DNA of 64,000 bases from Aeromicrobium choanae (lineage in GTDB: Bacteria; Actinomycetota; Actinomycetes; Propionibacteriales; Nocardioidaceae). The position numbers were made by a program, and so were the translations under genes. Below, one piece after another: positions 2,948 to 21,612 of the stretch; within the stretch, counting starts at the first letter, position 1; every line of letters starts with the position of its first letter. Location of the stretch: contig NZ_LT796768.1 in assembly GCF_900167475.1 (NCBI RefSeq), forward strand, positions 2,728,001 to 2,792,000, read 5' to 3'. A model generated the notes under the pieces. The model was given only the letters and a program-made list of their open reading frames with translations. It had not been told where the DNA came from and did no database searches.

Positions 2948-3330
2948 GCGAATGAGTCGGCCGGGCGGCCGCGGCGCCTCCGGGCGTCGAGGAAAGTCCG
3001 GACTCCGAAGAGCACGGTGGTGGCCAACAGCCACCCACGGTGACGTGCGGGACAGTGCCACAGAGAACAGACCGCCAGCGGCCACCTCCGGGTGGTGCGG
3101 GTAAGGGTGAAACGGTGAGGTAAGAGCTCACCAGCGCGGCGGGTGACCGTCGCGGCTAGGTAAACCCCACCGGGAGCAAGACCAAGTAGGCCCTCCGGGG
3201 CCGTGCCACAGGGCTGCTCGTCCGACGTGGCAGGTAGGTCGCACCGAGGTGTCCAGCAATGGGCATCCCAGATGGATGGCCGCCCCTGTTTCGACAGGAC
3301 AGAATCCGGCTTACAGGCCGGCTCATTCGC
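2948..3330 (+). ncRNA. rnpB: RNase P RNA, class A
   Basis: Catalytic RNA of ribonuclease P, which matures tRNA 5' ends. Conserved blocks are all present in order: GAGGAAAGTCCGGACTCC, AGAGAACAGACCGCC, GGGTAAGGGTGAAACGGTG, AAACCCCACC...GAGCAAGACCAAG, AGATGGATGGCCGCC and GACAGAATCCGGCTTACAGG. The ends are set by the P1 helix: GCGAATGAGTCGGCC at the 5' end pairs with GGCCGGCTCATTCGC at the 3' end. Length (about 383 nt) fits the class. Confidence 0.97.
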
Positions 3331-3811: not shown

Positions 3812-4006
3812 ATGGCGTACTTCTACTGCTTGAAGCACAACACCGTCGAGGGCGACGAGGGGTGCAAGGCGTCCGATCGCCTCGGCCCCTACGAGTCGGA
3901 GGCGGAGGCCTCGCGTGCGCTGGACACCGCGCACGAGAAGTCGAAGGCGTGGGACGAGGACCCGAAGTGGAACGACGACGCTCCACCGGCCGGCTCACCT
4001 GAGTGA
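3812..4006 (+). CDS. Small conserved actinobacterial protein (64 aa, unknown function)
   Basis: It begins MAYFYCLKHNTVEGDEGCKASDRLGPY and ends in a Trp/Asp-rich tail (AWDEDPKWNDD). I recognise this as a short protein widespread in actinobacteria with an invariant YCLKH...VEG..GC.A.DRLGPY core, but know no established function. The Cys-His and Gly-Cys pattern could bind a metal, which is speculation. Its TGA overlaps the GTG of the downstream membrane protein gene (GTGA), so the two are translationally coupled. Confidence 0.75.
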   Translation: MAYFYCLKHNTVEGDEGCKASDRLGPYESEAEASRALDTAHEKSKAWDEDPKWNDDAPPAGSPE

Positions 4007-5502
4007 CCCTTCCCGACCGGCTCGGCCGCGCCGGCTGGCCGATCGCCTGGGTCCTCCTGGCGCTGCCGCTGCTGTGGTGGACGGTCGGGCTCCTCTCCGA
4101 CGGCTGGCTCCCGCACGGTGACACGGCCGTGGCCGCCGTGCGGATCCACGACGTGTTCGGGCCGCACACGCCCCTGCTGGGCATGCCCTCGACCGGCGGA
4201 GAGATCGTCGAGGGCGCGCACGCCCACCACCCCGGCCCGATGCAGTTCCAGCTGCTGGCCCCGCTGTACGCGCTGAGCGGCTTCGCTCCCTGGGCGCTGG
4301 TGGTGGGGTCGTTCCTGCTGCTGACCGGGCTCCTGGGCCTCGCCCTCGCCGCGGCCTCACGGGCCGCCGGGCGCCGCGGCTGGCTCACCGTCGCGGTGGT
4401 CCACCTCGCCATGATCGTGGGTGTCGGCGTCGCCCTCGTCACCCCGTGGAATCCGTGGGTGGCGATGTTCGCGCTGGGCGCCTCGGTCTCGGCTGCCTGG
4501 GCCGTCCTGACCGGTCACGGACGCTGGTGGCCGGTCTTCGTCGTCGTGATCTCGCTGGCGGCGCAGACCCAGCTCGCGATCGCTCCGCTCGCCCTCGTGC
4601 TGGGACTGGTCACGCTCGGCGCCTCGATCGCGCTGTGGAGGAGGGGACGCCTCGAGGTCACGCGGGGAACCCTCGTGCTCACCCTCGTGCTGGGGCTGGC
4701 CTGCTGGGCCGCTCCGCTCGTGGAGGTGGTGCGGAACGAGCCGGACAACCTCGACCTGCTGGCGCGCATCGCCGGATCCGGCGGCGGACTGCTGCCCGCC
4801 GTCCTGCTCGCCGCGGTCGTCGGAGGGCTGCTGTGGTGGACCCGGCGGCGGCGCACGGGCCTGACCTCGGGCGATCCCTCGAGCCTGGTGACGTGGCTGT
4901 GGATCGGCACGCTCGTGCTGCTGGCCTCGGCGACGAGGGCGGGGGAGGGCCGCGGCTTCTACGTCGTCTACGGCGCCGCCGTCCCGCTCACTCTCCTCGC
5001 GTGGCCGGTGGTCGGCTGGGCGCTCCGGTCACGGCACCGACGTGCGCTCGGCGGGGTCGCTGTGGCCTGCGCGCTCCTGGCCCTGGCGTTCCTGCCGAAG
5101 AACATGGCCGACACCGCTCAGGGGGACAGCCGTCGTGCCGCGCCGGTGATCCGGGCGGCGCAGGCGATGGCGGGGACGGCCGGCGGCCCCGTCGTGGTCG
5201 AGACCAAGGGCGGGCTGGCCTGGCTCGACATCGGCGCGGGCGTCTACGCGGCGCTGCTGGCTGATGGCCACGACGTGTACTTCGACGCGCGGGTCGACGG
5301 CGAGCGCGAGGACGACTTCCGCGATCCACGGCAGGCGGAGGGTCCCGTGCGCCGGATCACCGTCCACAGTCATCCGGGAACGACCGATCCACCGCCGGAG
5401 GGCGCGGTGGTCGACCGGATCGAGCTGCCGCAGCCGGCGGGAGCCACCGTCGTGTCGGGTGCCGAGCGGTACGTCGACCTCGTGCTGCTCGACGAGCGCT
5501 GA
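4003..5502 (+). CDS. Polytopic membrane protein, GT-C glycosyltransferase-like
   Basis: A 499-residue protein with roughly ten hydrophobic segments and a soluble C-terminal domain from about residue 375. After the first helix comes GWLPHGDTAVAAVRIHDVFGPHTPLLGMPST...VEGAHAHHPGPMQF; such an acidic first loop after TM1 is a hallmark of GT-C type transferases using polyprenyl-phosphate sugars, but I cannot name donor or acceptor. A paralogue with the same first-loop pattern is encoded at 19918-21612. GTG start at 4003 overlaps the upstream stop by four bases. The gene is convergent with the HNH nuclease gene, 6 bases between stops. Confidence 0.8.
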   Translation: MTLPDRLGRAGWPIAWVLLALPLLWWTVGLLSDGWLPHGDTAVAAVRIHDVFGPHTPLLGMPSTGGEIVEGAHAHHPGPMQFQLLAPLYALSGFAPWALVVGSFLLLTGLLGLALAAASRAAGRRGWLTVAVVHLAMIVGVGVALVTPWNPWVAMFALGASVSAAWAVLTGHGRWWPVFVVVISLAAQTQLAIAPLALVLGLVTLGASIALWRRGRLEVTRGTLVLTLVLGLACWAAPLVEVVRNEPDNLDLLARIAGSGGGLLPAVLLAAVVGGLLWWTRRRRTGLTSGDPSSLVTWLWIGTLVLLASATRAGEGRGFYVVYGAAVPLTLLAWPVVGWALRSRHRRALGGVAVACALLALAFLPKNMADTAQGDSRRAAPVIRAAQAMAGTAGGPVVVETKGGLAWLDIGAGVYAALLADGHDVYFDARVDGEREDDFRDPRQAEGPVRRITVHSHPGTTDPPPEGAVVDRIELPQPAGATVVSGAERYVDLVLLDER

Positions 5503-6482: not shown

Positions 6483-7607
6483 TCAGGACAGCGCCCGGGC
6501 GACGAGGTCGACGAGCCCACCGCGCCAGCAGGCGTAGTCGTGGCCGCCGTCGAACTCGGTCAGCTCGACCGTCGTCTCCGTGGTGGCGAGGTCCTCGGCC
6601 AGCCGGCGGTGGAGGGGCAGCAGGGTCCACTCCTGCCGACCGACCTCGAGCAGGACGAGCCCTCCGCCCCGGGCCAGCTCGGGGGCCGGATCGGCCTTCC
6701 AGAGCGAGGCGGACTGAGCGATGGCGACGCCCACGCGATCCGGATGAAGCGCGACGGCCCACAGGGCCGAGAGTCCGCCCAGGCTCTGCCCCGCGACCAC
6801 CGTCCGCTCCGGCGAGCGCGAGACGTCCTCCCGTGCGTGCAGCCACGGCAGCACCGAGGTGGCCACGAAGGCCGTCACGCCCTCGGGAGTGCCGACGTCG
6901 GCCCACCGGTCGGCCACGCTGCCCGAGGCGACGAACACCGCCACGTGCGCCGGGACGGCACCGTCACGGTGGGCGGCGTCGAGGGAGCGGTGCAGGCCGT
7001 GGTGATCGAGCCAGGTCTCGCCGTCGAGGACCACGAGCACCGGCAGGTGGCGACCCGAGCCGACCCGGTGGACCCACACGTCGCGCCCGTCGATGCGATG
7101 GACCGGCGGGCGGGGCGTGAAGGAGTCACCCGGCCATGGCTGCGCCGGAGCGTCCGGGAGCGACACGACGGACATGGCCGTTCCCGCGCGGTTCAGCGCG
7201 CGATCGGCCACGTGCGGGTCGGGCAGGCCGCGATCGAGCAGCGACCGCAGCCCGACGTGCCCGTCGGCCCGTCGCCACGGCGGCTCCTCCGGCCACTCGT
7301 GGACGATGAAGGAGTACGACGCCCGCCACGTCGGCGCCATGCGCACGCTCAACGCCCACGGACCGCGCGGGCCGACCTGCTCCATCGTGGTGGCGTCGAG
7401 GTCGGACTCGTCCGTCAGGCGGTTGGCGAACAGCAGCACCGAGGAGGCGCCTGGCGCGTCGTGGACGAACGTCACGACGCACGTGTCGGGCTCGATGTCG
7501 ACGATGGGCCCGCGCGCCGCGCGCAGCACCTCGGGGTCGCGCAGTCGCTCGGGCAGCGGCACCCGGGGGACCGGCGACGGACGAGGAACCTTGGGCGGTT
7601 GCCTCAT
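6483..7607 (-). CDS. Enterochelin-esterase-like hydrolase (Fes/IroE family)
   Basis: 374 residues: an N-terminal enterochelin-esterase domain (about 1-150) and a C-terminal esterase-D type alpha/beta hydrolase. The nucleophile elbow VVAGQSLGGLSAL is visible, and EFDGGHDYACWR near the end supplies the catalytic His. Fes-type enzymes hydrolyse the ester backbone of ferric catecholate siderophores in the cytoplasm and release iron. No signal peptide is present. It is divergent from a GntR regulator and next to the siderophore ABC operon, which supports this role. The natural substrate (own siderophore or a xenosiderophore) cannot be told; no siderophore synthesis genes are in the window. Confidence 0.85.
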   Translation of the reverse strand: MRQPPKVPRPSPVPRVPLPERLRDPEVLRAARGPIVDIEPDTCVVTFVHDAPGASSVLLFANRLTDESDLDATTMEQVGPRGPWALSVRMAPTWRASYSFIVHEWPEEPPWRRADGHVGLRSLLDRGLPDPHVADRALNRAGTAMSVVSLPDAPAQPWPGDSFTPRPPVHRIDGRDVWVHRVGSGRHLPVLVVLDGETWLDHHGLHRSLDAAHRDGAVPAHVAVFVASGSVADRWADVGTPEGVTAFVATSVLPWLHAREDVSRSPERTVVAGQSLGGLSALWAVALHPDRVGVAIAQSASLWKADPAPELARGGGLVLLEVGRQEWTLLPLHRRLAEDLATTETTVELTEFDGGHDYACWRGGLVDLVARALS

Positions 7608-7651: not shown

Positions 7652-8353
7652 ATGACCATGCACGTCCCCCGACCGCCGCGAGCGTCCACGGCGCGCGGCT
7701 CGGACCGAGCGCGCGAGACCTTGCGGATCCTGACCGAGAACATCACGTCGGGTCGCTGGCCGCTCAACAGCCGGATCCCCACCGAGTCCGAGCTCATGGC
7801 CGAGCTCGGCGTCGGGCGCAGCACCCTGCGCGAGGCGGTGAGCTCGCTGACCGCGCTCGGGATGCTCGAGCCGGCCCGGAGCCGTGGCACGTTCGTCCGC
7901 TCGCTCAGCCCCGTCAGCGCGCTGCTGTCGGACTTCATCGGGAGCCACGCGAACCCCGAGATCCTGCAGGTGCGCCGGCTGCTCGAGGTGGAGTCCACGC
8001 GGCTCGCCGCGCTGCTGCGCACCGACGAGCAGCTCGAGCGGCTCGCCGCCGCGCACGAGCGCGACCTCAACGACGACCAGTCGCAGGGCGTCGTCCGTGG
8101 CGCCACGCCGGGAGAGTTCCACGCGATCATCCTCGAGGCGGCCGGCAACTCGTTGATGGCCGACCTCCATGCCGGGCTGATGCGCGGTGTCCGGACGGCG
8201 ATGGCGCGTGGCGAGATGGTGCCGCAGATCTCCGCGGCCGAGCGCCTGGCCGATCACGGGCGGATCCTCGACGCCATCAGGGAGCAGGATCCGGTCCGGG
8301 CCGCACAGGCTGCCGCGGATCACGTCGATCATGACCTGACGACCGCGGGATGA
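7652..8353 (+). CDS. FadR-subfamily GntR transcriptional regulator
   Basis: 233 residues. An N-terminal winged helix (about residues 20-90) contains RIPTESELMAELGVGRSTLREAVSSLTALGMLEPARSRGTFV, the GntR signature. An all-helical FCD domain follows, with EFHAIILEAAGNSLMADLHAGL and a C-terminal DHGRILDAI, the His positions of the metal/effector pocket. FCD regulators usually sense small organic acids and repress adjacent genes. It is divergent from the esterase gene, but its 3' end overlaps the convergent ABC ATPase gene by 77 bases, which is unusual. Its target is unknown; the esterase promoter is the obvious candidate. Confidence 0.85.
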   Translation: MTMHVPRPPRASTARGSDRARETLRILTENITSGRWPLNSRIPTESELMAELGVGRSTLREAVSSLTALGMLEPARSRGTFVRSLSPVSALLSDFIGSHANPEILQVRRLLEVESTRLAALLRTDEQLERLAAAHERDLNDDQSQGVVRGATPGEFHAIILEAAGNSLMADLHAGLMRGVRTAMARGEMVPQISAAERLADHGRILDAIREQDPVRAAQAAADHVDHDLTTAG

Positions 8354-9119
8354 TCATCGGCGTCCCGGTCTCCGGATCGGGCAGCAGCCGGCACGGCACG
8401 TCGAACACGTCCTCGACCAGCTCGGCCGTGACCACCTCGGTGGGCGGGCCCTGGGCCACGATCCGACCGCCCGACAGGACGACCAGGTGGTCGGCGTACC
8501 GGAACGCCAGGTTGAGGTCGTGCAGCACCGCCACCACGGTCGACCCGTCCTGCTGGAGCGACCGGCACAGGTCGAGGACCTCGAGCTGGTGCGACAGGTC
8601 GAGGTACGTCGTGGGCTCGTCGAGCAGCAGCATCGAGGTCTGCTGCGCCAGCGCCATCGCGATCCAGACCCGCTGGCGCTGACCGCCGGAGAGCTCGTCG
8701 ATCGACCGGTCGCGCAGGTCGCTGACGCCCGCGCGGGCGAGCGCCTCGTCCACGGCGCGCTCGTCCTCGCGCGTCCACTGGCGCAGCCACGTCTGGTGCG
8801 GGAACCGGCCGCGGCCGACGAGGTCCACGACCTCCAGGCCACTGGGTGCGACGGGGGTCTGGGGGAGCAGGCCCAGGATGCGGGCGACCTCCTTGCTGCC
8901 GTACTCGCCGATCGGACGGCCGTCGAGCAGGACCTCGCCCGAGGTCGGCACCAGCATCCGCGCCAGTGCGCGCAGGAGCGTGGACTTGCCCGACGCGTTC
9001 GGGCCGACGAGCACGGTGAAGCACCCGTCGGGGATCGCCACGTCGAGGTCTGCCAGGACGGGCCGGCCGTCGTAGCCGGCGGACAGGCCACGGGCCTGCA
9101 GTCGAGCGGGGACGGTCAT
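8277..9119 (-). CDS. Iron(III)-siderophore ABC transporter ATPase (FecE/FhuC/FepC type)
   Basis: 280 residues. Walker A GPNASGKST, signature LSGGQRQRV, Walker B MLLLDEPTTYLD and H-loop VLHDLNLA are all intact. ARGLSAGYDGRPVLADLDV at the start and the QTPVAPSGLEVVDLVGRGRFPHQ insertion are typical of the siderophore/heme/cobalamin importer class. ATG at 9119 overlaps the stop of the upstream permease (ATGA). It is the last gene of the iron operon; its final 25 codons overlap the convergent GntR gene. Confidence 0.95.
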   Translation of the reverse strand: MTVPARLQARGLSAGYDGRPVLADLDVAIPDGCFTVLVGPNASGKSTLLRALARMLVPTSGEVLLDGRPIGEYGSKEVARILGLLPQTPVAPSGLEVVDLVGRGRFPHQTWLRQWTREDERAVDEALARAGVSDLRDRSIDELSGGQRQRVWIAMALAQQTSMLLLDEPTTYLDLSHQLEVLDLCRSLQQDGSTVVAVLHDLNLAFRYADHLVVLSGGRIVAQGPPTEVVTAELVEDVFDVPCRLLPDPETGTPMIIPRSSGHDRRDPRQPVRPGPDPAP

Positions 9120-10219
9120 CGCTTCTCCCTCGTGAGCAGCCAGATCAGGTACAGGCCCCCGAGGGAGCCGGAGACGACGCCCACCGGCAGCTGGGTCGGG
9201 GCGAAGAGTCGTTGGGCGACGATGTCGCTGGCCAGCGTCAGCGCGGCGCCCATCAGCGCGGCCGAGGCCAGGCCGGAGCCGGCCGTGCGGGTGATCCTGC
9301 GAGCCAGCTGCGGCGCGGCCAGCGCGATGAAGGCGATCGGTCCGGCGACCGCGGTGGCCGCCGCGACGAGGACGACTCCGCACACGACCAGGCCCAGCCG
9401 CGAGGGCTCGACGCGTACGCCGACACCGCGGGCCGCGTCGTCGCCGAGCGCGAGGACGGGGAGGGTCCGGGCGAGGGCGGCGGTGAACGGCGCGACGACC
9501 GCGAGGACCAGGCCCAGCCGCGCGACGTCCTGCCAGGTCATCGCGTTGAACGATCCCGCGAGCCAGTGGGCGGCGTCCTGCGCGGCCGACAGGTCGGCCC
9601 GCACGACGAGCAGCGTGTTGACGGCCTGCAGGACGGCGGCGACGCCGATCCCGACCAGGACGAGCCTCACGCCGGGCACGCCGCCGTGCCTGCCGCCCTG
9701 CCACGCCAGCGCCCCGACGACCGCGGCGGTGACGAGACCTCCGACGAGGGCCGCAGGCGCGGTCGCGTCAGGACCTCCGCCCAGCAGCGTGATCTGGATC
9801 AGGGCGCCGGTCGCCGCGCCGATCGTGAAGCCCACGATGTCCGGACTTCCCAGCGGGTTGTCCGACACCTGCTGGATGATCGCGCCGGACACGCCGAGCG
9901 CCGCGCCCACGAGCAGGGCGCACACCACGCGCGGCGCTCGCTGCTCGCGCACGAAGAACTCGGCCAGCGGGTCGCTCCCGTCCCCGGCCAGGGCCCGCAG
10001 CACCTGGGACGGGGCGAGACCGTAGTCGCCGATCGTCAGCGCCACGACGGCGAGGCCGGCGCCGACGAGCGTCGCGACGAGCGCGAACACCGCCACCCGC
10101 GCCTCGAGCCGCCAGGCGACGAGCCGGTTGCGCAGGACGAGACGGGTGGTCGGGCTCGGTGCGGGCTCTCGGGTCACCGGGGTGCGCGTCAGGGTGCGGG
10201 TCACAGTGACTCGATTCAC
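9116..10219 (-). CDS. Siderophore ABC transporter permease 2 (FecCD family)
   Basis: 367 residues with about nine membrane helices after a cytoplasmic N-terminal segment. FecCD hallmarks are visible: RAPRVVCALLVGAALGVSGAIIQQ, NPLGSPDIVGFTIGA, and VAGPIAFIALAAPQLARRI. The GTG start at 10219 overlaps the stop of the first permease (GTGA). It forms the membrane channel with the preceding permease, fed by the binding lipoprotein and powered by the ATPase encoded next. An alternative downstream in-frame GTG would shorten the N-terminus by a few residues. Confidence 0.92.
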   Translation of the reverse strand: MNRVTVTRTLTRTPVTREPAPSPTTRLVLRNRLVAWRLEARVAVFALVATLVGAGLAVVALTIGDYGLAPSQVLRALAGDGSDPLAEFFVREQRAPRVVCALLVGAALGVSGAIIQQVSDNPLGSPDIVGFTIGAATGALIQITLLGGGPDATAPAALVGGLVTAAVVGALAWQGGRHGGVPGVRLVLVGIGVAAVLQAVNTLLVVRADLSAAQDAAHWLAGSFNAMTWQDVARLGLVLAVVAPFTAALARTLPVLALGDDAARGVGVRVEPSRLGLVVCGVVLVAAATAVAGPIAFIALAAPQLARRITRTAGSGLASAALMGAALTLASDIVAQRLFAPTQLPVGVVSGSLGGLYLIWLLTREKR

Positions 10220-11211
10220 AGTGCCTCGATCCGGCGGCGACGCACCACCGCGATGAAGACGGGCCCGCCGAGGATCGCGGTGACGATGCCGGCCTGGACC
10301 TCGGACGTGCCTCCGAGGACGCGGCCGAGCACGTCGGCGACGAGCAGGAACGCCGCGCCCAGCAGCACCGAGCACGGGAGCACCCAGCGCTGGTCGGACC
10401 CGCAGAGGGCTCGCGCCACGTGGGGGACGCCGAGCCCGACGAACGCGATCGGTCCGACCGCGGCGGTCGCGGCGGCGCACAGCAGGGCGATGGCGACGAC
10501 GGTCAGCAGCCGGGTGCGGCGGACATCGAGGCCCAGGGACCGTCCGGTGTCGTCGCCGAGCGCCAGCGCGTTGAGCCGTGGAGCCAGCGCGGCGGCCAGG
10601 GCGACGCCCGCCACGACGAAGGGCAGGATCGTCCCGGCGGTGCCCAGGGCCCGGCCGTCGAGCGAGCCCGCCGCCCAGAACCGGAACTCGTTGAAGACCT
10701 CCTGGTCGGCCAGGATCACCGTCTGGACGATCGCGGACACCGCGGCGGTCACGGCGACGCCCGCCAGCGCGATGCGCGCGGGGCTGCCTCCCGTGCTGCC
10801 GGTGTCGCCCAGCACGTGCACCACCCCGACGGCGAGGAAGGCGCCGACGAGGGCGGCCCACAGCGAGGAGCCGACCGACGTCACGCCGGTGAGCGAGCTG
10901 GCCACCACCACGGCGAGGGCGGCCCCGGCGTTCACGCCGAGCACGCCGGGGTCGGCCAGCGGGTTGCGCGTCAGCGTCTGCATGAGGGCGCCCGCCAGGC
11001 CGAGGGCGGCGCCGGCGACGAGTCCCACGACGGTGCGGGGCCAGCGCAGCTCGTGCACGGCCACCGAGGCCTGCGTCGCGTCGGGGGTCCACCACACCTC
11101 CCACACGCGGCCGGGGGAGAGGGGGTGCGAGCCGACGGCGACGCTCAGCACCATCGCGACGACGACCGCCGCGAAGGCGAGGGCCAGGGCACGGGGTCGC
11201 GTCAGGGTCAC
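10216..11211 (-). CDS. Siderophore ABC transporter permease 1 (FecCD family)
   Basis: 331 residues, the typical length. Conserved FecCD segments: LRWPRTVVGLVAGAALGLAGALMQ, NPLADPGVLGVNAGAALAV, LALGDDTGRSLGLDVRRTRL and VGPIAFVGLGVPHVAR. It pairs with the second permease as a heterodimeric channel for ferric-siderophore or a related iron chelate (heme importers share the family). Four bases separate it from the stop of the surface-protein gene upstream, and it overlaps the next gene by four bases. Confidence 0.93.
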   Translation of the reverse strand: MTLTRPRALALAFAAVVVAMVLSVAVGSHPLSPGRVWEVWWTPDATQASVAVHELRWPRTVVGLVAGAALGLAGALMQTLTRNPLADPGVLGVNAGAALAVVVASSLTGVTSVGSSLWAALVGAFLAVGVVHVLGDTGSTGGSPARIALAGVAVTAAVSAIVQTVILADQEVFNEFRFWAAGSLDGRALGTAGTILPFVVAGVALAAALAPRLNALALGDDTGRSLGLDVRRTRLLTVVAIALLCAAATAAVGPIAFVGLGVPHVARALCGSDQRWVLPCSVLLGAAFLLVADVLGRVLGGTSEVQAGIVTAILGGPVFIAVVRRRRIEAL

Positions 11212-11215
11212 CGGC

Positions 11216-12019
11216 TCACCCGCGGCGGGACAGTGTCAGGCGTGTGCCCACGAACGAGAGGGCCACGATTCCGACGAGGCCGAGCGCCCCGATCCACGGG
11301 AATCCGGAGTCGCTCGTCGACGTCGCCGTCTGCTCGGTCGGCGCGGCCGCGACGGGCGCCTCGGTGGGCGCCGCCGTCGTGGCGGTGGCGGAGGGCTTCG
11401 CGGTGGTCGGTGGTGCGACCTTCACGACCTCGCCGGGTGTCGCTCCCGCCGTGGATCCGCCGGCGCCGGCCGCCGTTCCCGTCGCACCGCCCGCGGCACC
11501 CGACGCCGAGCCCTTCGATGCGCTGGACCCGCCCGATCCGGTGGCGGCGCCGGCGTTGCTGCCGGAACCGGCGACGACGGTGAAATCCGAGCGCCCCCGT
11601 GCGGTGTAGCCCTTGACGCCGACCTGCTGCCCGTCGCGCAGGATCGGCTCGCTGGCCAGGAAGCGCAGCCAGTGCGCGCCGGGTGCGAGGTCGCCCGGGA
11701 CGGTGAAGGAGCCGGAGACGGTGCCCGACGACGGGATCTTCTGCTGGTGGTAGACGCAGGCGCCATGCACGGCGGCCGCGTCGCACTGCGTGCCGTCGTC
11801 GATCTTCACGAAGACGGTCTCCCCGGCCGGGAAGCCGGTGACGGTGAAGGACAGCCGGTCGCCGGGGGCGACGCGCGTGGGGCTGGCGCTGGCGGAGGTG
11901 CCCGGCGTGTCCGGATCGGCTCCGCCGGGCGGGAGCGCGGCGGCGGGTCCACCGTGGCCGAGGGCGACGAGCGCGATCACGGCCGTCGCGAGCAGGCGGG
12001 CCGGGGCGAGGTGCTTCAT
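11216..12019 (-). CDS. Membrane-anchored surface protein with one Ig-like domain (iron operon)
   Basis: 267 residues: signal peptide (to about residue 29, ending PAAALPPG), one Ig-like domain (about 35-135) containing VFVKIDDGTQCDAAAVHGACVYHQQ and PGDLAPGAHWLRFLASEPILRDGQQ, a Gly/Ala/Ser/Thr-rich low-complexity linker of about 90 residues, and a C-terminal helix (FPWIGALGLVGIVALSFVG) with a basic tail. There is no LPXTG, so it is probably held by the membrane helix with the domain reaching through the wall. The same domain occurs in the next protein and in the divergent propeller protein. Two Cys in the domain may form a disulphide. I infer binding of an iron carrier (siderophore, heme or hemoprotein); no known heme domain is recognisable. 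Confidence 0.8.
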   Translation of the reverse strand: MKHLAPARLLATAVIALVALGHGGPAAALPPGGADPDTPGTSASASPTRVAPGDRLSFTVTGFPAGETVFVKIDDGTQCDAAAVHGACVYHQQKIPSSGTVSGSFTVPGDLAPGAHWLRFLASEPILRDGQQVGVKGYTARGRSDFTVVAGSGSNAGAATGSGGSSASKGSASGAAGGATGTAAGAGGSTAGATPGEVVKVAPPTTAKPSATATTAAPTEAPVAAAPTEQTATSTSDSGFPWIGALGLVGIVALSFVGTRLTLSRRG

Positions 12020-14310
12020 GCGGTCTTCTTCCTGGTCGAGAGGGTGCCGCCGGCGATGCCGACGGCGAGCGCCGCGCCGGCGGCCAGAAGCCACCAGTCG
12101 GCCGCGGAGAGCAGCGCCTCGCCTGCGGGGACGACGGCGGCGCCCACGGCCGGCAGGACGGGGGAGTCGTCGGTGGAGGGAGGTGCCGGGGCCGTGGCTC
12201 CGACGACGAGACGGTCCCAGCCGGCCAGGCTCCCGTCGGCCCGGACGAGGGCGATCGTGAGGTCCCCGTCGCCGAAGGCCGACAGGTCGAGGCGGATCCG
12301 TCGCTCGGCGTCGAGCTGGAGCCAGCCGGCGCCGACGGGGGCGGAGCCGTCGAGGTACACGAACGGGTGCACCCAGTCGGCCGGGGTCCCGGTGGGCACG
12401 GTCACGGTGGCGATCCCGTCCTCGATCTCGGCCTCGACACCGCCTCGAACGAGCGTCGTGAGGTCGGCGGCGCGCTCGGCCGGGGGAGCCGGCGCGAGCA
12501 CCGGCGGTCCGGTGACCGCGGTCGCGGGCGGCGGTGTCGCGCGGGCGGCCGCCTTCGTCGTGGGCTTCGTCCACGCGCGAGCGGCGTCCGCCGGCTCCTC
12601 GGGGTCAGGCGTCCGGGGCGCGAGGGCGGCCGTGGTGCCCCACCACGTCCAGCCGAGCAGGTCGCCGAAGGCGTCCCGGTCCCCGGACTGGGCGACGAGC
12701 TTCACCCGTGCGTCCGGCAGGACAGCGGCGGGCACGCTGAGCCGCCCGCGGGCGTCCGTGCGGAACCAGGTGTCGCCCCACGGGTACTCGGGCGATCCGT
12801 CGGTCCGGTACGCGCTGAGCGAGACGAACGAGCCGGCCGACGCACCGGGCACCGTGACGTCGAGGCGCCCGCCCGAGCGCACGGCGGTGAGGCCGCGGCG
12901 GGTGGACGGGGTGAGGTCCTCGGAGTACTCCACGGGGTCGGGCAGGGTCGTCGGGCGGTACGTGCCGATCACGAAGGCGTCGGTCTGCAGCGTGCGCACC
13001 GTGTCGCCGGACTTCAGGGATCCGCTGAGCAGCCGCAGCGTGTGGGCTCCCTGCCCGAAGGCAGGGGTCGAGCCGAGGTCGCCGGTCGTGGTGCCGTCGG
13101 GCAGCCGGAACCGGGCATCGAGCTCGCCCGTGGCCGGATCGGCCTCGGCGACGGCCCAGATCGTGCGGTTCTGGTGCACCGAGGTGTCGGTGCGGCTGTA
13201 GGCGCCCTCGTCGATCTTGATGCCGACGGTGGAGCCGCCACGTCCGGCAGCGGGGTGGCACCAGCCCGAGCCGGTGAGGTGGAGGGTGCCGCCGAGGCCG
13301 TCGGTCTCGACCGTGGCGCGGGCGGTAGTCACGGACGAGGTGGGGACGCACGTGACGGACTCGCCGGGGCCGCCCCCGCCCTCGTGGGGCACGCCGTCGA
13401 CCACGAGCAGGCCGGAGGTGGCCGTCCTCTGCACGTCGGCGGCGTCGAACCGCCCGCTGAGCACGGTGGCCGAGAGGTACTGGCCGGCCACGAGTCCGGG
13501 CGGGGCGTCGAGGGTGGTCGAGAACGTCCCGTCGGCCCCGGCCGTGACGAGCGCCCAGATCGTGTCGTCGCCCGCCGCGGACGGGTGGTCGACGATGGCG
13601 TCGCCCGAGCGGGTGTACTGCGCGGTCGCGCTGCGGTTGAGCTTGACCGCCACGGTCGAGCCGCGGCCGTCGCGCGTGGACCATCCCGTGCCGGCGAGGC
13701 GGATGCTCCGCCCGTCACCCGCATCGATCCGGCTCTCGACCCACGCGGTGGCCGTGCCGGCGGCGAGGGTCTCGTGGGACCACGACGGCGCACCCGGCTC
13801 GCTCGGGGCGGGCTCGGTCGGGGCGGGTGTCGTGGGGGCGGTCGGCGTGGGCTCGGGCTCGGTGGGCTCGGCCTCGACGTCGACCTCCACGAGCTCCGTG
13901 CGGCTCACGTCACCGGTCAGCATCGAGCCGGAGAGGATGCGCACGCCGTGACGGCCCGGCTCCCAGGTGCCGGTGGCGTTCTCGGTCGTCGGGAACGGCA
14001 GGTCGACCTCCCAGTCACCGTCGGCGTCGGCCCGCACCGCCGCCCACACCGTCTTGTTGCCGATGACGGCGTCGGTGACGGGATGGCGGACGTCGCGCTT
14101 GGTGCTGATGGAGCCCTCGTCGAGCTTGAACGCGAGCACCGAGCCGGCAGTGCCGTCGGCGGTGGTCCAGCCGGTGCCGGCCAGGGTGATGGTGGTGCCG
14201 GGGCGGATGGTGCCGGGCCCGTCGACCGACGGGCTCGCGGCGTGCGAGGGAGCGGCGACGGCCAGCCACGGGAGGGCCAGCAGCGCCGACAGGAGCAGGC
14301 GGACGATCAC
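12016..14310 (-). CDS. Large membrane-anchored surface protein with three tandem Ig-like repeats (iron operon)
   Basis: 764 residues: signal peptide (ending PSHAAS, about residue 25), then three repeats of about 100 residues sharing the pattern L(A/T)G(T/S)GW...G(S)xVxxK(L/I)(D/N)...(T)(I/V)WAxVxAxAxG and a closing LSG(S/R). Examples are FKLDEGSISTKRD, VKLNRSATAQYTRSG and IKIDEGAYSRTD. A Pro/Thr/Glu linker separates repeats 1 and 2. Two further Ig-like segments and a C-terminal membrane helix with RKK tail follow. The repeats resemble neither NEAT nor HtaA domains as I know them. Position between the binding lipoprotein and permeases, with overlapping stop/start codons on both sides, makes it an obligate partner of the importer. 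Exact ligand unknown. Confidence 0.8.
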   Translation of the reverse strand: MIVRLLLSALLALPWLAVAAPSHAASPSVDGPGTIRPGTTITLAGTGWTTADGTAGSVLAFKLDEGSISTKRDVRHPVTDAVIGNKTVWAAVRADADGDWEVDLPFPTTENATGTWEPGRHGVRILSGSMLTGDVSRTELVEVDVEAEPTEPEPTPTAPTTPAPTEPAPSEPGAPSWSHETLAAGTATAWVESRIDAGDGRSIRLAGTGWSTRDGRGSTVAVKLNRSATAQYTRSGDAIVDHPSAAGDDTIWALVTAGADGTFSTTLDAPPGLVAGQYLSATVLSGRFDAADVQRTATSGLLVVDGVPHEGGGGPGESVTCVPTSSVTTARATVETDGLGGTLHLTGSGWCHPAAGRGGSTVGIKIDEGAYSRTDTSVHQNRTIWAVAEADPATGELDARFRLPDGTTTGDLGSTPAFGQGAHTLRLLSGSLKSGDTVRTLQTDAFVIGTYRPTTLPDPVEYSEDLTPSTRRGLTAVRSGGRLDVTVPGASAGSFVSLSAYRTDGSPEYPWGDTWFRTDARGRLSVPAAVLPDARVKLVAQSGDRDAFGDLLGWTWWGTTAALAPRTPDPEEPADAARAWTKPTTKAAARATPPPATAVTGPPVLAPAPPAERAADLTTLVRGGVEAEIEDGIATVTVPTGTPADWVHPFVYLDGSAPVGAGWLQLDAERRIRLDLSAFGDGDLTIALVRADGSLAGWDRLVVGATAPAPPSTDDSPVLPAVGAAVVPAGEALLSAADWWLLAAGAALAVGIAGGTLSTRKKTA

Positions 14311-15290
14311 GGCAGAAGCTCGCTCTCGACGTCGTCGATGATGCGGTTCATCAGCCGAGGCCCTCCGGTGGACGTCCAGGCCGAGCCGTCGACCGCGATC
14401 ACGTGGTCCTCGCGCTGGGCCTTGAGACGGTCGAAGCCGGGCGTCCCCGCGGCCTCGGCCAGCACGGCGAGGGAGCCGGCCGCGTCGGCGCTGCCGCCGG
14501 CCTCCGGGTTGTCCACGCTCGCACCGCCCAGCGTGCCGAAGAACAGGTAGTCGGCGTCGATCTGGTCGAGGTTCTCCAGGGACACGGGCTCGGAGTGCCC
14601 CCGGCCCTCACGGTCCTGCGCGGGCGGTCGGCGCAGGCCCAGGTCGCTCAGGGCCCGGCCGGCCGGCAGCTCCTTGAGGATCAGCGACGGGGCGCCGCCC
14701 TGCCAGCGCACGATCGAGAAGGTGGCGTCGGCGTGGTCCTGCGCGAGCCGGGTCCGGAGGTCGGCGACGCGGGTGTCGTAGGCGGCGAGCACGTCGGCGC
14801 CTCGATCGGTCAGGCCCAGGGCGTCGGCGGTGATCTCGAAGTTCGTGCGCCAGTCGCCGCCGGCGTAGCCGGTGTACACCGTGGGGGCGATCCGCCGCAG
14901 CGCCTCGAGGGCATCGGCGTTGTTGTTGATGCTGGTCCCGTCGACGAGGATCAGGTCGGGGTCGGCCTTGCCGATCGCCTCGTAGTTCGGTTGGGCGATG
15001 CCGCCGAGGACGGGCACGTCGGCGAGCTCGTCGGCGAGGTACGCCGGGACCGTGCTCTGGCCGCGCCCGGTGACGGCGCCCACCGGCGTGACGCCGAGCG
15101 TGACCAGGGCGTCGAGGGTGGGCTCGCTGAGTGCGACGACCCGTTCCGGGCTCTCGGGCACCTCCACGGGTTGGCCGTCGATGTCGGTCACGGTGCGGAC
15201 GGGCCCGCTGGCGGCGGGGTCGTCACCGGCCGAGCACGCGGCGAGCGCGAGCACGGACGCGGCCAGGAGCGCGAGCAGGCGCTGGGTCAT
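14307..15290 (-). CDS. Iron-siderophore ABC transporter substrate-binding lipoprotein (FecB/FepB type)
   Basis: 327 residues. A lipoprotein signal with lipobox LALAAC (C19) anchors it to the membrane. Next comes a periplasmic-binding-protein class III fold with VTDIDGQPVEVPESPERVVALSEPTLDALVTLGVTPVG and NYEAIGKADPDLILVDG, typical for siderophore binders. ATG at 15290 has GAGGAG five bases upstream; a TTG one codon earlier would be too close. It is the first gene of the six-gene operon, behind a DtxR/IdeR-like box. Its stop overlaps the GTG of the large surface protein gene (GTGA). Confidence 0.92.
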   Translation of the reverse strand: MTQRLLALLAASVLALAACSAGDDPAASGPVRTVTDIDGQPVEVPESPERVVALSEPTLDALVTLGVTPVGAVTGRGQSTVPAYLADELADVPVLGGIAQPNYEAIGKADPDLILVDGTSINNNADALEALRRIAPTVYTGYAGGDWRTNFEITADALGLTDRGADVLAAYDTRVADLRTRLAQDHADATFSIVRWQGGAPSLILKELPAGRALSDLGLRRPPAQDREGRGHSEPVSLENLDQIDADYLFFGTLGGASVDNPEAGGSADAAGSLAVLAEAAGTPGFDRLKAQREDHVIAVDGSAWTSTGGPRLMNRIIDDVESELLP

Positions 15291-15304
15291 CAAAGCTCCT
15301 CGAT

Positions 15305-15323
15305 GTAGGTCAGGCTCACCTTA
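15305..15323 (-). promoter_or_regulatory. DtxR/IdeR-like iron box, operon side
   Basis: The 19 bases match the actinobacterial iron-box consensus TTAGGTTAGGCTAACCTAA at 15 of 19 positions. The site is 15 bases upstream of the start codon of the binding lipoprotein, where Fe2+-loaded repressor would block the promoter. The regulator gene itself is not in the window. Confidence 0.75.
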
Positions 15324-15388
15324 ATCTGACCAAGTGTCGGACCCCCCGTCGGGTCGGGGCCGACGTGCGATAGCGTCCTCCATCAGAT

Positions 15389-15407
15389 GAAGGCAAGCCT
15401 AACCTGA
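15389..15407 (+). promoter_or_regulatory. DtxR/IdeR-like iron box, propeller-gene side
   Basis: 14 of 19 positions match the iron-box consensus, including the unbroken half AGCCTAACCT. It lies 24 bases upstream of the GTG of the divergent propeller gene. Two boxes in one 140-base divergent region indicate coordinate iron repression of both transcripts. Confidence 0.7.
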
Positions 15408-15430
15408 TTGCCAGCCCTGAAGGAGCCCCA

Positions 15431-17932
15431 GTGAGCATCACAGCCATGTCGCGAGCATCACGCCGCGGCGGCCTGCGCACGATCGTCGCCGGACTCGTGA
15501 CCGCCTGCGCGGTCGCCGGTCTGTCCGCGCCCGCGCACGCCGCAGAACCCCGTCCCGACACCGGCGACGGAGCCGTCACGATCACCTCCCCGCTGACCAC
15601 CGAGCCCGGCGCCGAGGTCGCGTTCGAGGGAAGCGGCTTCACCGCCGGCACCTCCGGGGGCGCACCGGCGTGGCAGACCGTCTCGGTCAAGCTCGACGAC
15701 GCCGGCGACGTCCTCGCCACGGTGCAGGTCGAGTCGGACGGCACGTTCGACGGAACCCTCGACCTGCCCGGCGATGTCGCGCTCGGCGAGCACTGGCTGC
15801 GCTTCCTGGGCTCGAACCCGGTCGTCTCGAAGCACACGCAGTCCTTCACGGTCGTGGACGAGCTGCCGCAGGGTGCGGAGGTCACGGCGACCGTCAGCAC
15901 CGGTGGCCGCGGTGTCCCGGCGGGCACCGTGACGATCACGGTCGCCGGTAACGGCTTCGAGCCGGGAGAGGCCCTCGGCGCCCGCGTCGACGGGTCGGCC
16001 AAGCCGTGGGGCGCGAGCGGCGCCACCACGCCCACGGTCGCGGCAGCGGCCGACGGATCGGTCGCCGGAGCACGCCTGGTCTTCGCGCCGGGGACGCTGC
16101 GCGCCGGTCCGCACGAGCTCGTGATCGAGCGCGCCGCCGCCGGCGCTGCCGACATCGCCAAGGACGTGACCGTTCCGCCCGCGGCGGCGTTCAGCACCCT
16201 CTCGGCCGGATCCGAGGGCACCCTCACGCTCTCCAACCTGCCGTCGGGCGCCACCGTGCCCGCGATCGAGTTCGGCGACGTCGACTTCGCGCTGCCGGCG
16301 ACGGCCGACGCCGCCGGCGCGGTGACGATCGCCTACTCCATCCCCGCGGACGCGGGCCTGGGCACCCAGCCGGTCGTCATCACCCAGGCGGGCCCCGCCG
16401 CGACCTACACGCTGTCGGCCAAGATCTCGCCCAGCGCCACCGTGTTCGGCACGGAGGCCTTCGACCGGGTCGAGACCGCGCCCGGCGCCATCCAGCAGGG
16501 CCTCTACCAGAGCGACTTCAGCGCCGCGAGCGACGCGCTCTTCGCCACCTCGGCCAGCGTGCTCGCCACGTCCACGCTCTACAAGCTCGATCCGAAGACG
16601 CTCGCCGTCAAGGCCTCGACCGTCCCGGCCGAGGAGACGCCCGGCGCCCTGTGGGCCGCCTACGGCGTCGGCGTCGACGACAGCAACGGCACCGTGTGGG
16701 TCACCAACACCCGCCAGGACGCCGTCGCCGTCTACGACCAGGACGACCTCTCGCTCGTCAAGCAGTTCCCCCGCGGCACCGCCTCGCACTCGCGAGACGT
16801 CGTCGTCGACGAGACGCGCGGCCGCGCCTACGTCAGCGAGGCGCTGCGCTCGCGGACGACGAACCACATCGTCGTCTTCGACACCGAGACCCTCGAGGTC
16901 GTCGACCGTATCGAGATCCCCGGCGTCCCGATGAGCCTCGCGCTCGACGAGAAGAAGGGCAGCCTCTACACCGTCGACATCTCGGCGCCGAAGGCCTACG
17001 CGATCGACGTCGCGGGTGCCGCGCACGAGGTGCGGACGATCGACCTCGGCCTCAGCGACTCGGCCAGCGCGTCGGGTGTCGACTACGACCCGAAGACGCA
17101 GCGCCTCTTCGTGGCCAGCCAGGGCGCCGACAACCTGCTGGTCGTCGACGCACGCACCGGCAAGCAGCTCGCCGACGTGCCCACGGGTGCCGGTGCGCTC
17201 AACGTCCAGCACGACGCCGTGAACGGTCTGACGTACCTCGCCAACTTCGGCGGCGTGACCGTCTCGGTCGTGGACGACTCGTACCGCGTGGTGGCCAACC
17301 TCGACCTCCAGCGCACCAACCACATCGCGACGGACGGCAAGGGCTCGGTCTTCGCGGTCGACAAGGCCGCCGAGAACCAGGTCGTCAAGCTGACCCCGAA
17401 GGCGCTGCAGGCCGGCACCGTGAAGGTCACCGGCACGGCGCGGGTGGGCACGACCCTGACCGCGACCACCGCGTCGTGGGCCACGGGCGCCCGCCTCACC
17501 CACCAGTGGCTGCGCGCCGGGAAGCCGATCGCGAAGGCGACCGGTCGCACCTACACGCCGACGGCCGCCGACCGTGGCCGCGCGCTGTCGGTGCGGGTCA
17601 CCGGCGCCAAGGCGCCGTACGCCGCGGTCACGAAGCAGTCGTCCGCGGTCACCGTGCGTGCCGGGGTCCTGCGCGCCGGGAAGCCGCGGATCTCCGGAAC
17701 GCCGAAGGCCGGCAAGCGGCTCGTGGTCAAGCGCGGCACGTGGACCGCGGGCACGACGGTCCGCTACCGCTGGTACGTCGGTGGCAAGGCGGTCAAGGGC
17801 GCGACGAAGTCCTCCTTCGTCCTGCAGAAGAAGCACCGCGGCAAGAAGGTGACCGTCAAGGTCACCGGGAGCAAGGCGGGCTACGCCTCCGTGACCCGCG
17901 CCGCGAAGGCGGTCAAGGTCAAGCGGAAGTGA
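15431..17932 (+). CDS. Secreted Ig-like / YncE-type beta-propeller protein (iron-box controlled)
   Basis: 833 residues. Signal peptide to about residue 38 (ending APAHAAEP). Residues 45-140 form the same Ig-like domain as in the iron-operon surface proteins (VSVKLDDAGDVLATVQVES, GDVALGEHWLRFLGSNPVV). After two more Ig-like segments, residues about 340-650 form a seven-bladed-type propeller with YVSEALRSRTTNHIVVFDTETLEVV and LFVASQGADNLLVVDARTGKQLADV, as in YncE. Two C-terminal repeats (VKVTGTARVGTTLTATTASW; PRISGTPKAGKRLVVKRGTW) end in a very basic tail. GTG at 15431 has GAAGGAG upstream. E. coli YncE is iron-regulated too (from memory). It may present or capture the iron carrier outside the cell; enzymatic activity is not indicated. 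Confidence 0.82.
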   Translation: MSITAMSRASRRGGLRTIVAGLVTACAVAGLSAPAHAAEPRPDTGDGAVTITSPLTTEPGAEVAFEGSGFTAGTSGGAPAWQTVSVKLDDAGDVLATVQVESDGTFDGTLDLPGDVALGEHWLRFLGSNPVVSKHTQSFTVVDELPQGAEVTATVSTGGRGVPAGTVTITVAGNGFEPGEALGARVDGSAKPWGASGATTPTVAAAADGSVAGARLVFAPGTLRAGPHELVIERAAAGAADIAKDVTVPPAAAFSTLSAGSEGTLTLSNLPSGATVPAIEFGDVDFALPATADAAGAVTIAYSIPADAGLGTQPVVITQAGPAATYTLSAKISPSATVFGTEAFDRVETAPGAIQQGLYQSDFSAASDALFATSASVLATSTLYKLDPKTLAVKASTVPAEETPGALWAAYGVGVDDSNGTVWVTNTRQDAVAVYDQDDLSLVKQFPRGTASHSRDVVVDETRGRAYVSEALRSRTTNHIVVFDTETLEVVDRIEIPGVPMSLALDEKKGSLYTVDISAPKAYAIDVAGAAHEVRTIDLGLSDSASASGVDYDPKTQRLFVASQGADNLLVVDARTGKQLADVPTGAGALNVQHDAVNGLTYLANFGGVTVSVVDDSYRVVANLDLQRTNHIATDGKGSVFAVDKAAENQVVKLTPKALQAGTVKVTGTARVGTTLTATTASWATGARLTHQWLRAGKPIAKATGRTYTPTAADRGRALSVRVTGAKAPYAAVTKQSSAVTVRAGVLRAGKPRISGTPKAGKRLVVKRGTWTAGTTVRYRWYVGGKAVKGATKSSFVLQKKHRGKKVTVKVTGSKAGYASVTRAAKAVKVKRK

Positions 17933-19917: not shown

Positions 19918-21612
19918 GTGTCGACCTCGCCCGCCTCGATCCCCACGCGGATCGGCCGACGGCTCGCCCTGCGCGAGCACCGGTGGTTCTGGACGGTCTT
20001 CGCCCTGCTGCTCGTCCCGATCGTCGTCTGGTACTTCGCGCGGCTCGGTGAGGGCTGGCTGCCCCAGGGCGACGACGCGATGATCGCCATTCGCGCCCAC
20101 GACGCCTGGTCGGGCCACTGGCCCCTCGTGGGCATGCGCTCGACCAGCGACCAGACCGTCGAGGGCGTCTACGCCTATCACCCCGGGCCGCTCGAGTTCT
20201 ACGTGATCGGGCTGCCCTACCTGCTGTCCGGCTGGCACGTGTGGGGGCTGCTGCTCGGCTGCGCGCTCGTGACGGCGGCGTTCGTCGGGGTGTCGCTGTG
20301 GTCGGGCTACCGCGCGGCGGGCCGTCCCGGACTGCTCGCGATGGCCGGCGCGACGATCACGCTCTACGGGCTGTTCGGGTCGGTGCTCGTGCTGCCCTGG
20401 AACCCGTGGCCCACCGTCTTCGGGCTGCTCGCCAGCCTCGCCGTGGCGTGGCGGATGCTGCTGGGGCACCGCGGCCTGTGGCCGTTGTTCATGATCTGCG
20501 TCAGCTGGACGGGACAGGCCCACCTCGGCGTCACCCCGATCGTCGGACTCCTGGGCGTCTGGATGCTCCTCCTGACGATCCGCCGCTGGTGGCGCGGGTT
20601 CCGCAGCAGGCCCGGCGAGGTCGGGCGCACGCTCCTGGTTGCCTTCGTCTGCTGGCTCGGCCCGATCGTCGAGGCCCTCACGTACTCGCCGAACAACGTC
20701 GGTGAGATCGCCGCCCTCACCACCGCGGAGAAGACCCAGGACACCTCCGTCGCCGACTCCTGGATCCACGTCACCCACATGGTGTTCCCGTGGGTGCGCC
20801 ACTGGCGCGACGGTGGGCAGCTGACGTACCCGGCGGTCGGCCTGTTGGTCCTCGGCGTGGTCGCCGTGGCCTGGCGTTCCCGCGACCGGCGCCGCCGGCG
20901 GCGCATCGACCGCGACGTCGACATCGCCACCAGCGCGGTGGTGGTCGGGCTGTTCGCGGTGGCCGCCACCTTCTGGGCCGGCACCCGCACCGGCGGCGAC
21001 CTGCGGATCGTCTACCTCGACTTCACGATGGCCGGGCCGGTCTTCTTCACCGCCGCCCTCGCGCTGTGGGGGTTCCACCGGGTCCGCCTGCGGCTCGAGC
21101 GTCGCGGTGCCGGCGCCGACCGGATCCGTGGCTTCACCGTCGCGGCCGCGGCGGCGGCCGTGCTGCTGCCGATCCTCGGCACCCTCGCGGGCTCGGCCTC
21201 GGTCCGCACGTTCGTCGAGGCGGGCAACGAGGTCAACGCCGAGCAGGCGCGGCTCGTGGTCGACGAGGTCGTCCCCGCCCTGAGCGAGGCCCCGTACGCC
21301 GACCTGCCCGTCGAGGTCGAGGGCGTCGGCTTCACGGCGTGGGGGAGTGTCGGACCCGCGGTGTCGCACCGGCTCGTGGTCGAGGGCCGCCCCGTGTACT
21401 ACGAGTCGTGGTGGCCCAAGTCGGCCGATGACGACCACCGCCGCCCCCGGGACATCGAGGGGACCCGCGTGGTGGTGCGGCTCGAGGAGCGCGCCGGAGG
21501 GGCTTCGTGGGAGGAGCCCGCGGAGCCGGTCGACGAGACCCTCACCTTCCCGCTGCTGACCGACGAGGACGGCGGCGAGATCCGCGTGCTCCTGTCGGTG
21601 CGCGGCGACTGA
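19918..21612 (+). CDS. Polytopic membrane protein, GT-C glycosyltransferase-like (paralogue of 4003-5502)
   Basis: 564 residues with about ten membrane helices and a soluble C-terminal domain from about residue 430. The region after helix 1, [21 protein letters not shown]...[27 protein letters not shown], parallels the protein at 4003-5502 (GWLPHGDTAVAAVRIHDVF...PLLGMPST...VEGAHAHHPGPMQF). The shared GDD/GDT, HD and HPGP positions suggest a GT-C-like membrane transferase; substrate unknown. GTG at 19918 is preceded by AAGGA. Convergent with nadE, 7 bases between stops. Confidence 0.8.

Follow-up and report, generated by a model that had tools for sequence, protein, structure and literature searches.

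What do three surface proteins with immunoglobulin-like (Ig-like) domains do beside an iron importer, when the capture of siderophores in Gram-positive bacteria is usually credited to a lipoprotein alone? The locus that raises this question lies in a 64,000-nucleotide stretch of Aeromicrobium choanae DNA (contig NZ_LT796768.1, positions 2,728,001 to 2,792,000), here termed the window, whose coordinates are used throughout; the host genome is a single contig of 3.42 Mb, and the closest named protein relatives come from Aeromicrobium. Six minus-strand genes running from 15290 to 8277 encode, in this order, a substrate-binding lipoprotein (BP), the surface proteins A and B, the permeases P1 and P2 and an ATP-binding cassette (ABC) ATPase, and a divergent plus-strand gene opposite this operon encodes the 833-residue protein C. 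With a probability of roughly 0.57, we interpret the locus as an importer for a ferric catecholate siderophore of the enterobactin type, in which the Ig-like proteins would catch the ferric siderophore outside the cell and hand it over to BP. Siderophore import by ABC transporters is known; what appears to be new, judging from the sequences, is the conserved and unnamed set of Ig-like surface proteins.

The importer itself has the composition of the Fec/Fep kind, namely a PF01497 lipoprotein, two PF01032 permeases and a PF00005 ATPase encoded in a single operon, and the best NCBIfam match of a permease is a ferric siderophore permease. The gene order given by a first-pass annotation of this DNA, with A and B inserted between BP and the permeases, is confirmed. 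The 4-base overlaps described in the same annotation are present as GTGA or ATGA at four of the five junctions (BP/A, A/B, P1/P2 and P2/ATPase), but B and P1 are separated by a 4-base gap.

Such loci are accompanied by a Fes-type esterase and by genes for enterobactin-type synthesis, which makes a catecholate siderophore the most likely carrier, a ligand that the first-pass annotation had not foreseen. In the window, the Fes gene lies near the end of the operon, past a GntR-type gene on the opposite strand; both Pfam parts of its product score over their cut-offs, and it is the sole PF11806 match in the host genome. An EntA/C/B/F-like cluster is located at 642.9-651.0 kb of the same genome. 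It encodes an isochorismate synthase (EntC; TIGR00543, 261.9 bits against a cut-off of 224.75), a dehydrogenase whose best family is the EntA-type TIGR04316, an EntB-like protein that matches only hydrolase models below their cut-offs and is 43% identical to the PF00857 protein of a related locus (L039), and a 1261-residue nonribosomal peptide synthetase whose best family, over nearly its whole length, is EntF. The synthetase motifs FDVSVWE and NLYGPTEAAIDVT fit what we take to be the serine-type code, and a probable EntE between the cluster genes is named by position and motif only. A DtxR-like site with one mismatch is found where the cluster begins. The host therefore probably produces its own ligand, as far as gene content can tell, and the genomic support for the ligand class appears to be good.

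The same association extends beyond the host. GTDB species genomes were scanned with patterns derived from A, which is accordingly present by construction in all 40 loci obtained; these come from Rothia, Kocuria, Corynebacterium, Microbacterium, Leucobacter, Nesterenkonia, Cellulomonas, Nocardioides, Propionibacteriaceae and others, and contig ends cut several of them. By script, 25 of the 40 have the complete order BP-A-B-P1-P2-ATPase, a count that falls to 24 if L031 is left out because its P1 and P2 matches share one stretch 5 kb downstream; the other orders are A-B-P1-P2-ATPase (three loci), BP-A-B-P1-P2 (two), BP-A (two), A-BP-B (three), A-BP-B-P1-P2-ATPase (one) and A alone (four). Both B and P1 occur in 31 loci, and in 30 of these B immediately precedes P1; the conservation of B is close to that of the permeases (mean pairwise identity 0.535 versus 0.52 in 25 loci plus the window). 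Fes relatives occur in 21 of the 40 loci and follow the ATPase gene in 15 of 27 testable loci by the script rule, or in 18 when the overlapping cases L033, L037 and L039 are included. At least one EntA/B/C/E/F relative is found in 15 loci (EntF in 12, EntB in 9, and EntA, EntC and EntE in 7 each), with the relatives in L031, L046 and L049 being weak at about 30% identity. In the Rothia aeria locus (L047), BP-A-B-P1-P2-ATPase is followed by Fes, EntE, EntB and EntF. GntR-type regulator relatives are present in 15 of the 40 loci, lying either upstream of BP or in the stretch that separates Fes from the operon, and 20 of the 33 loci with BP have an open reading frame (ORF) for a propeller protein, most of which carry at least one of the Ig-like domains. 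One Corynebacterium metagenome-assembled genome has three tandem propeller genes upstream of the operon (L034, 3-7795). Ribosomal protein genes adjoin L033, L037, L039, L042 and L043. In L032, L035 and L041, the operon and the propeller gene lie amid ribosomal protein genes and no synthesis genes were found nearby, as if these loci served the uptake of siderophores made by others.

A test that does not start from A covered 393 genomes spread over the class, with a B profile threshold of E <= 1e-8. The profile matched 6 genomes and PF11806 matched 40; all 6 B-positive genomes have PF11806 on the same contig, 0.5-22.7 kb away (p 8e-7 by chance, and 8e-6 without the own genome). When each genus is represented by a single genome and the own genus is left out, the association is found in three of three (p 0.004). 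Three of these genomes (G120, G135 and G177), in which no A was found, encode proteins in which the domain occurs four to about nine times, and the copies sit in regions with EntA, EntC, EntE, EntB, EntF, Fes, BP and permease genes. Of the 393 genomes, 19 have a BP relative at E 1e-40; 3 match B strongly (1e-47 or better), and only these 3 have BP relatives of at least 59% identity. Among 58 relatives, A matches in 3, the own genome included, with a weak partial match only in G031; G045 has BP, A, B and P1 in order. The system is thus rare and patchy in the class. In the genus of G177, Fes was found in 34 of 150 genomes.

The proteins A, B and C are bound together by one domain family. In the model of A, three Ig-like repeats are followed by two beta-sandwich domains of a second type and then by a membrane helix (predicted template modelling score, pTM, 0.50). 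In profile-profile comparison, the three repeats match one another with probabilities of 99.7-100%; repeats 1 and 3 match B at 95.6% and 96.1%, repeat 2 matches B at only 41%, and the repeats match domain 1 of C at 80-94%, the upper value being that of repeat 2. B and C domain 1 match at 98.6%, and a B profile run on the own genome at E <= 1e-8 returned only these two, in agreement with the first-pass annotation, which had assigned the same Ig-like domain to the divergent propeller protein. The domains D4 (residues 462-560) and D5 (612-706) of A did not match the Ig-like repeats by profile comparison, and a second Ig-like stretch of C matched nothing in the profile-profile comparison. The recurrent motif noted in the first pass is real, but its strict form, [VIF]K[LI][DN][DE], is present in four of the five domain copies and not in all, A repeat 2 having VKLNR; in 500 shuffles of A, B and C together, the mean count was 0.008 and the maximum 1. 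A further signature, H-x-[LV]-R-x-L, also occurs in four of the five copies. In a model of the B domain (predicted local distance difference test, pLDDT, 86.4), the lysine (domain residue 47, B residue 72) lies in strand 43-48, and the histidine and arginine lie in strand 89-103; from the Ig fold and residue alternation, the lysine and arginine strands would be adjacent with both residues on one face. We speculate that this strand-C lysine and strand-F arginine, kept in most copies, could face a negatively charged ferric tris-catecholate.

The family was called new-looking in the first pass, which is right as far as annotation goes. Neither A nor B reached a Pfam or NCBIfam cut-off, and none of the best 120 of 174 B homologues (the window's own included) carries a precomputed Pfam domain, but the family is not confined to the host, as the 40 loci in other actinobacterial genomes demonstrate. 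The B homologues listed are named 'hypothetical' or 'uncharacterized', with one exception ('Cell surface protein'), and a few A homologues have an extra Pfam Ig domain. The Rothia mucilaginosa protein P0102, which bears the name LPXTG cell wall anchor protein, has a propeller fused to A-like repeats. Pfam matches of single B domains to GEVED, MalQ_N, MG2 and AA9 were all below cut-off and were rejected; in G177 and G120, whose proteins have many repeats, weak matches add up so that GEVED passes its cut-off while every single stretch stays below, and MG2 and NPCBM_assoc pass in the same way in the G120 protein. Among solved structures, the A sequence alone found no relative up to E 1, the A profile gave a single chance-level row and B gave weak rows only (best E 0.01). 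In a structure search with A and B, the rows listed are generic Ig-like neighbours. Among the best-ranked records of the open-licence PubMed Central literature, part of the searching being aimed at heme and at Rothia enterobactin, we found no description of surface proteins of the A, B or C type.

Iron control of both transcripts is suggested by two DtxR/IdeR-like boxes between them, scored against a 19-bp sequence that we take to be the DtxR/IdeR consensus. The two boxes, already noted in the first-pass annotation, are the only sites of at least 13/19 in 64 kb, and 20 first-order shuffles gave 0.1 such sites per window and none above 13. The 15-base core without mismatch occurs at four positions in the genome, two of which are these boxes. 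With up to one mismatch allowed, the core matches 21 and 24 times on the two strands; because a reversed control pattern gives 10 and 12, most one-mismatch sites are untrustworthy when taken singly. The 40 related loci (711 kb) contain 29 sites of at least 15/19, with 0.2 expected from shuffles, and a box of at least 13/19 lies within 320 bp upstream of BP in 20 of 33 BP loci, compared with 3.2% of 4000 random stretches. The importer locus is probably induced by iron starvation, to judge by these sites.

Taken together, these observations suggest the following scheme. The secreted C and the five-domain A, reaching through the wall, would catch the ferric siderophore; the short B would present it to BP at the membrane; P1, P2 and the ATPase would carry it inward; and Fes would open the lactone and free the iron. 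A DtxR/IdeR-type repressor with iron would shut both transcripts. We regard the locus as very probably a catecholate siderophore importer on genomic grounds, and, once this is granted, it is fairly likely that the Ig-like proteins bind the siderophore. A relay, as already proposed in the first pass, would be a sensible task for A, B and C. The most vulnerable step of the scheme is the binding of the siderophore by the Ig-like domains themselves. A bolder version, which we offer tentatively and with some doubt, would make the Ig-like domain with the VK(I/L)DD...HWLRFLA signature a new siderophore-binding domain. Anchored A and B and a secreted propeller-linked C would then relay ferric catecholates at the actinobacterial surface, and a common ancestry with the enediyne apoproteins, which bind aromatic ligands, would be possible.

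Several observations weigh against a siderophore relay for catecholates. Ig folds serve many uses, and a catecholate importer might employ A, B and C as scaffolds, holding BP or a wall protein layer, or as iron-stress adhesins without any siderophore binding. The structural neighbours of A, which are Ig-like, FN3-like and macroglobulin-like folds, would suit such a role, as would the biofilm protein and RbmA among the Foldseek rows and the repeat number that differs among lineages; however, the fixed place of B before P1, its permease-like conservation and the fact that the domain turns up again in Ent clusters of lineages whose loci are laid out differently lead us to consider this rather unlikely. 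The ligand assignment has its own difficulties. Among solved structures, BP comes closest to YfiY (E 1.5e-33) and SirA, which we take to be binders of citrate/hydroxamate-type siderophores, and enterochelin-binding proteins follow far later (3e-8). The host Fes reaches 158.2 bits with the enterochelin esterase model NF007758, below the cut-off of 222; the EntA-type dehydrogenase misses its cut-off of 300 with 269.6 bits, the synthetase has 619 bits against an EntF cut-off of 2400, and the synthesis genes lie 2.1 Mb from the importer locus. Among the 40 loci, 19 have no Fes, some of them cut by contig ends; eight of these are full six-gene loci, of which L025 and L045 end soon after the ATPase gene and L028, L029, L032, L034, L035 and L041 extend at least 5 kb past it. 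Ordinary genes surround these eight, seven of which have a propeller ORF. In the class sample, two of the six B-positive genomes (G000 and G281) share the own genus and G120 and G135 share another, and in 13 of the 33 BP loci the 320 bp upstream contain no box. An importer for another siderophore class, of the citrate/hydroxamate type, beside which Fes and Ent genes just happen to lie, would account for the BP relatives and for the loci without Fes; against this, the association of Fes and Ent genes in many loci and in the class sample, and the BP relatives inside the Ent clusters of G120, G135 and G177, make it improbable in our view.

Heme uptake with unusual receptors, after the manner of the corynebacterial hmu/hta operons, was considered because of the like layout, in which surface proteins are encoded in a FecCD-type operon with DtxR-like boxes. 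The first-pass statement that the repeats resemble neither HtaA nor NEAT was upheld by profile searches of A and B: PF04213 (HtaA) gave no match up to E 1, and NEAT was absent from the Pfam matches up to E 1, a search in which filters drop most matches above 0.1. The HtaA domains of the own genome score 0.2-1.6% against the seven domains compared, and no HtaA or NEAT chain appeared among the best 50 rows of the structure search, an absence that carries no weight as proof. The genome has a separate HtaA locus (L107, 2197650-2204852), in which five PF04213 matches are accompanied by a gene for heme oxygenase and by two DtxR-like sites of one mismatch each, and Fes is not a heme enzyme; we therefore hold heme uptake to be highly improbable and return to the catecholate relay as the preferred interpretation.

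The features of the locus are collected in the table below.

Features of the importer locus and its neighbours in window coordinates, with the evidence for each.
Feature	Position	Strand	Evidence
BP, substrate-binding lipoprotein	14307..15290	-	PF01497 87.4 bits; ATG at 15290; lipobox-like LAAC
A, 764-residue membrane-anchored protein	12016..14310	-	model pLDDT 84.8; 50-row alignment
A repeat 1, about residues 27-150	13861..14232	-	profile comparison and model
A repeat 2, about residues 178-305	13396..13779	-	profile comparison and model
A repeat 3, about residues 326-449, best conserved repeat	12964..13335	-	alignment, profile comparison, model
A domain D4, second beta-sandwich type	12631..12927	-	99.5% profile match to D5, none to the repeats
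A domain D5, second beta-sandwich type	12193..12477	-	profile comparison
A membrane helix, 736-758 of the model	12037..12105	-	structure model
B, 267-residue membrane-anchored protein, one Ig-like domain	11216..12019	-	no Pfam family over cut-off
B Ig-like domain, VKIDD and HWLRFLA signatures	11567..11944	-	alignment; motif search
Permease P1	10216..11211	-	PF01032 307.8 bits
Permease P2	9116..10219	-	PF01032 253.9 bits
ABC ATPase of the importer	8277..9119	-	PF00005 107.5 bits
GntR/FCD-family regulator, between Fes and ATPase genes	7652..8353	+	PF00392 and PF07729 over cut-off; tblastn
Fes-type enterochelin esterase	6483..7607	-	PF11806 70.7 bits (cut-off 27.1); PF00756 74 bits (cut-off 22)
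DtxR-like box before BP	15305-15323		15/19 to consensus; core without mismatch; 14 bases before BP ATG
DtxR-like box before C	15389-15407		14/19 to consensus; core without mismatch; 23 bases before C start
C, Ig-like/propeller protein, divergent	15431..17932	+	NF052280 YncE 75.1 bits (cut-off 400)
C domain 1, B-like Ig domain	15551..15841	+	B profile E 7.1e-11

By inspection of the sequences, a hydrophobic stretch and then RR close the sequence of B, and no hydrophobic stretch was seen at the C terminus of C, the latter judged by eye without a membrane predictor. The iron locus is flanked by paralogous membrane proteins (4003-5502 and 19918-21612, plus strand) that share 37% identity over 261 residues and have no Pfam match at E 0.001. 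At the Rfam gathering threshold, no regulatory RNA was found in the 64-kb window; the sole match is a bacterial class A RNase P RNA (2953-3329, plus strand, 288.9 bits).

If the proposed relay is true, a receptor layer that has not yet been mapped would accompany the catecholate loci of several actinobacterial genera, including the commensal Rothia, and would do for siderophores what the NEAT and HtaA relays do for heme. The analysis provides a protein family for annotation and links enterobactin-type producers to an uptake system. It also makes directly testable whether a single Ig-like domain holds ferric enterobactin or not.

Comparison with known systems places the locus between several of them. 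In E. coli, ferric enterobactin is taken up by FepB-FepDG-FepC with Fes, and the present locus is alike in its binding protein, two FecCD permeases, ATPase and Fes-type esterase; it differs in that it has no outer membrane receptor, has two anchored and one secreted Ig-like protein instead, and encodes a BP that is not close to FepB. The corynebacterial HtaA/HmuTUV systems likewise encode surface proteins with a FecCD-type importer under DtxR-like boxes, but A and B show no PF04213 match and the host keeps its HtaA proteins in a locus of their own. With the NEAT/Isd system, which relays heme on the surface, the locus shares the idea of a relay through Ig-like-domain surface proteins, whereas Pfam gives no NEAT match and the ligand class is different. 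YncE of E. coli and the zinc chaperone AztD are secreted propellers tied to metal supply, and C shares their seven-bladed type of propeller and adds Ig-like domains, with a YncE score far from the family cut-off. The neocarzinostatin-type fold gave the top structure-search rows, tied with other Ig folds; PF00960 did not match the window's B, its best score among the orthologs was 19.8 against a 25-bit cut-off, and 2 of 33 match at E 0.01.

Among actinobacteria, enterobactin is produced by Rothia mucilaginosa, whose cluster is shared in highly similar form by R. dentocariosa and R. aeria (PMC7190385). Enterobactin-like clusters have also been reported from Rothia in a second paper, in which ribosomal protein genes flank some of them, together with a related cluster in 'Candidatus R. 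avicola' ChiHjej12B11-9195 (PMC13347742). Our L047 is from R. aeria and L033 is from that very 'Candidatus Rothia avicola' genome, and in both the operon stands beside Ent genes. The word 'transporter' is absent from the main texts of PMC7190385 and PMC13347742, and the surface proteins are not described in the parts of these papers available to us. The RUSTI siderophore import island of cheese Actinobacteria (PMC5526665) has two binding-protein genes and AraC-like regulators, and the accessible portion of its description includes no Ig-like protein. By that same description, RUSTI and the present locus are alike in combining, within Actinobacteria, a FepD/G/C-like importer with binding proteins associated with the cell surface.

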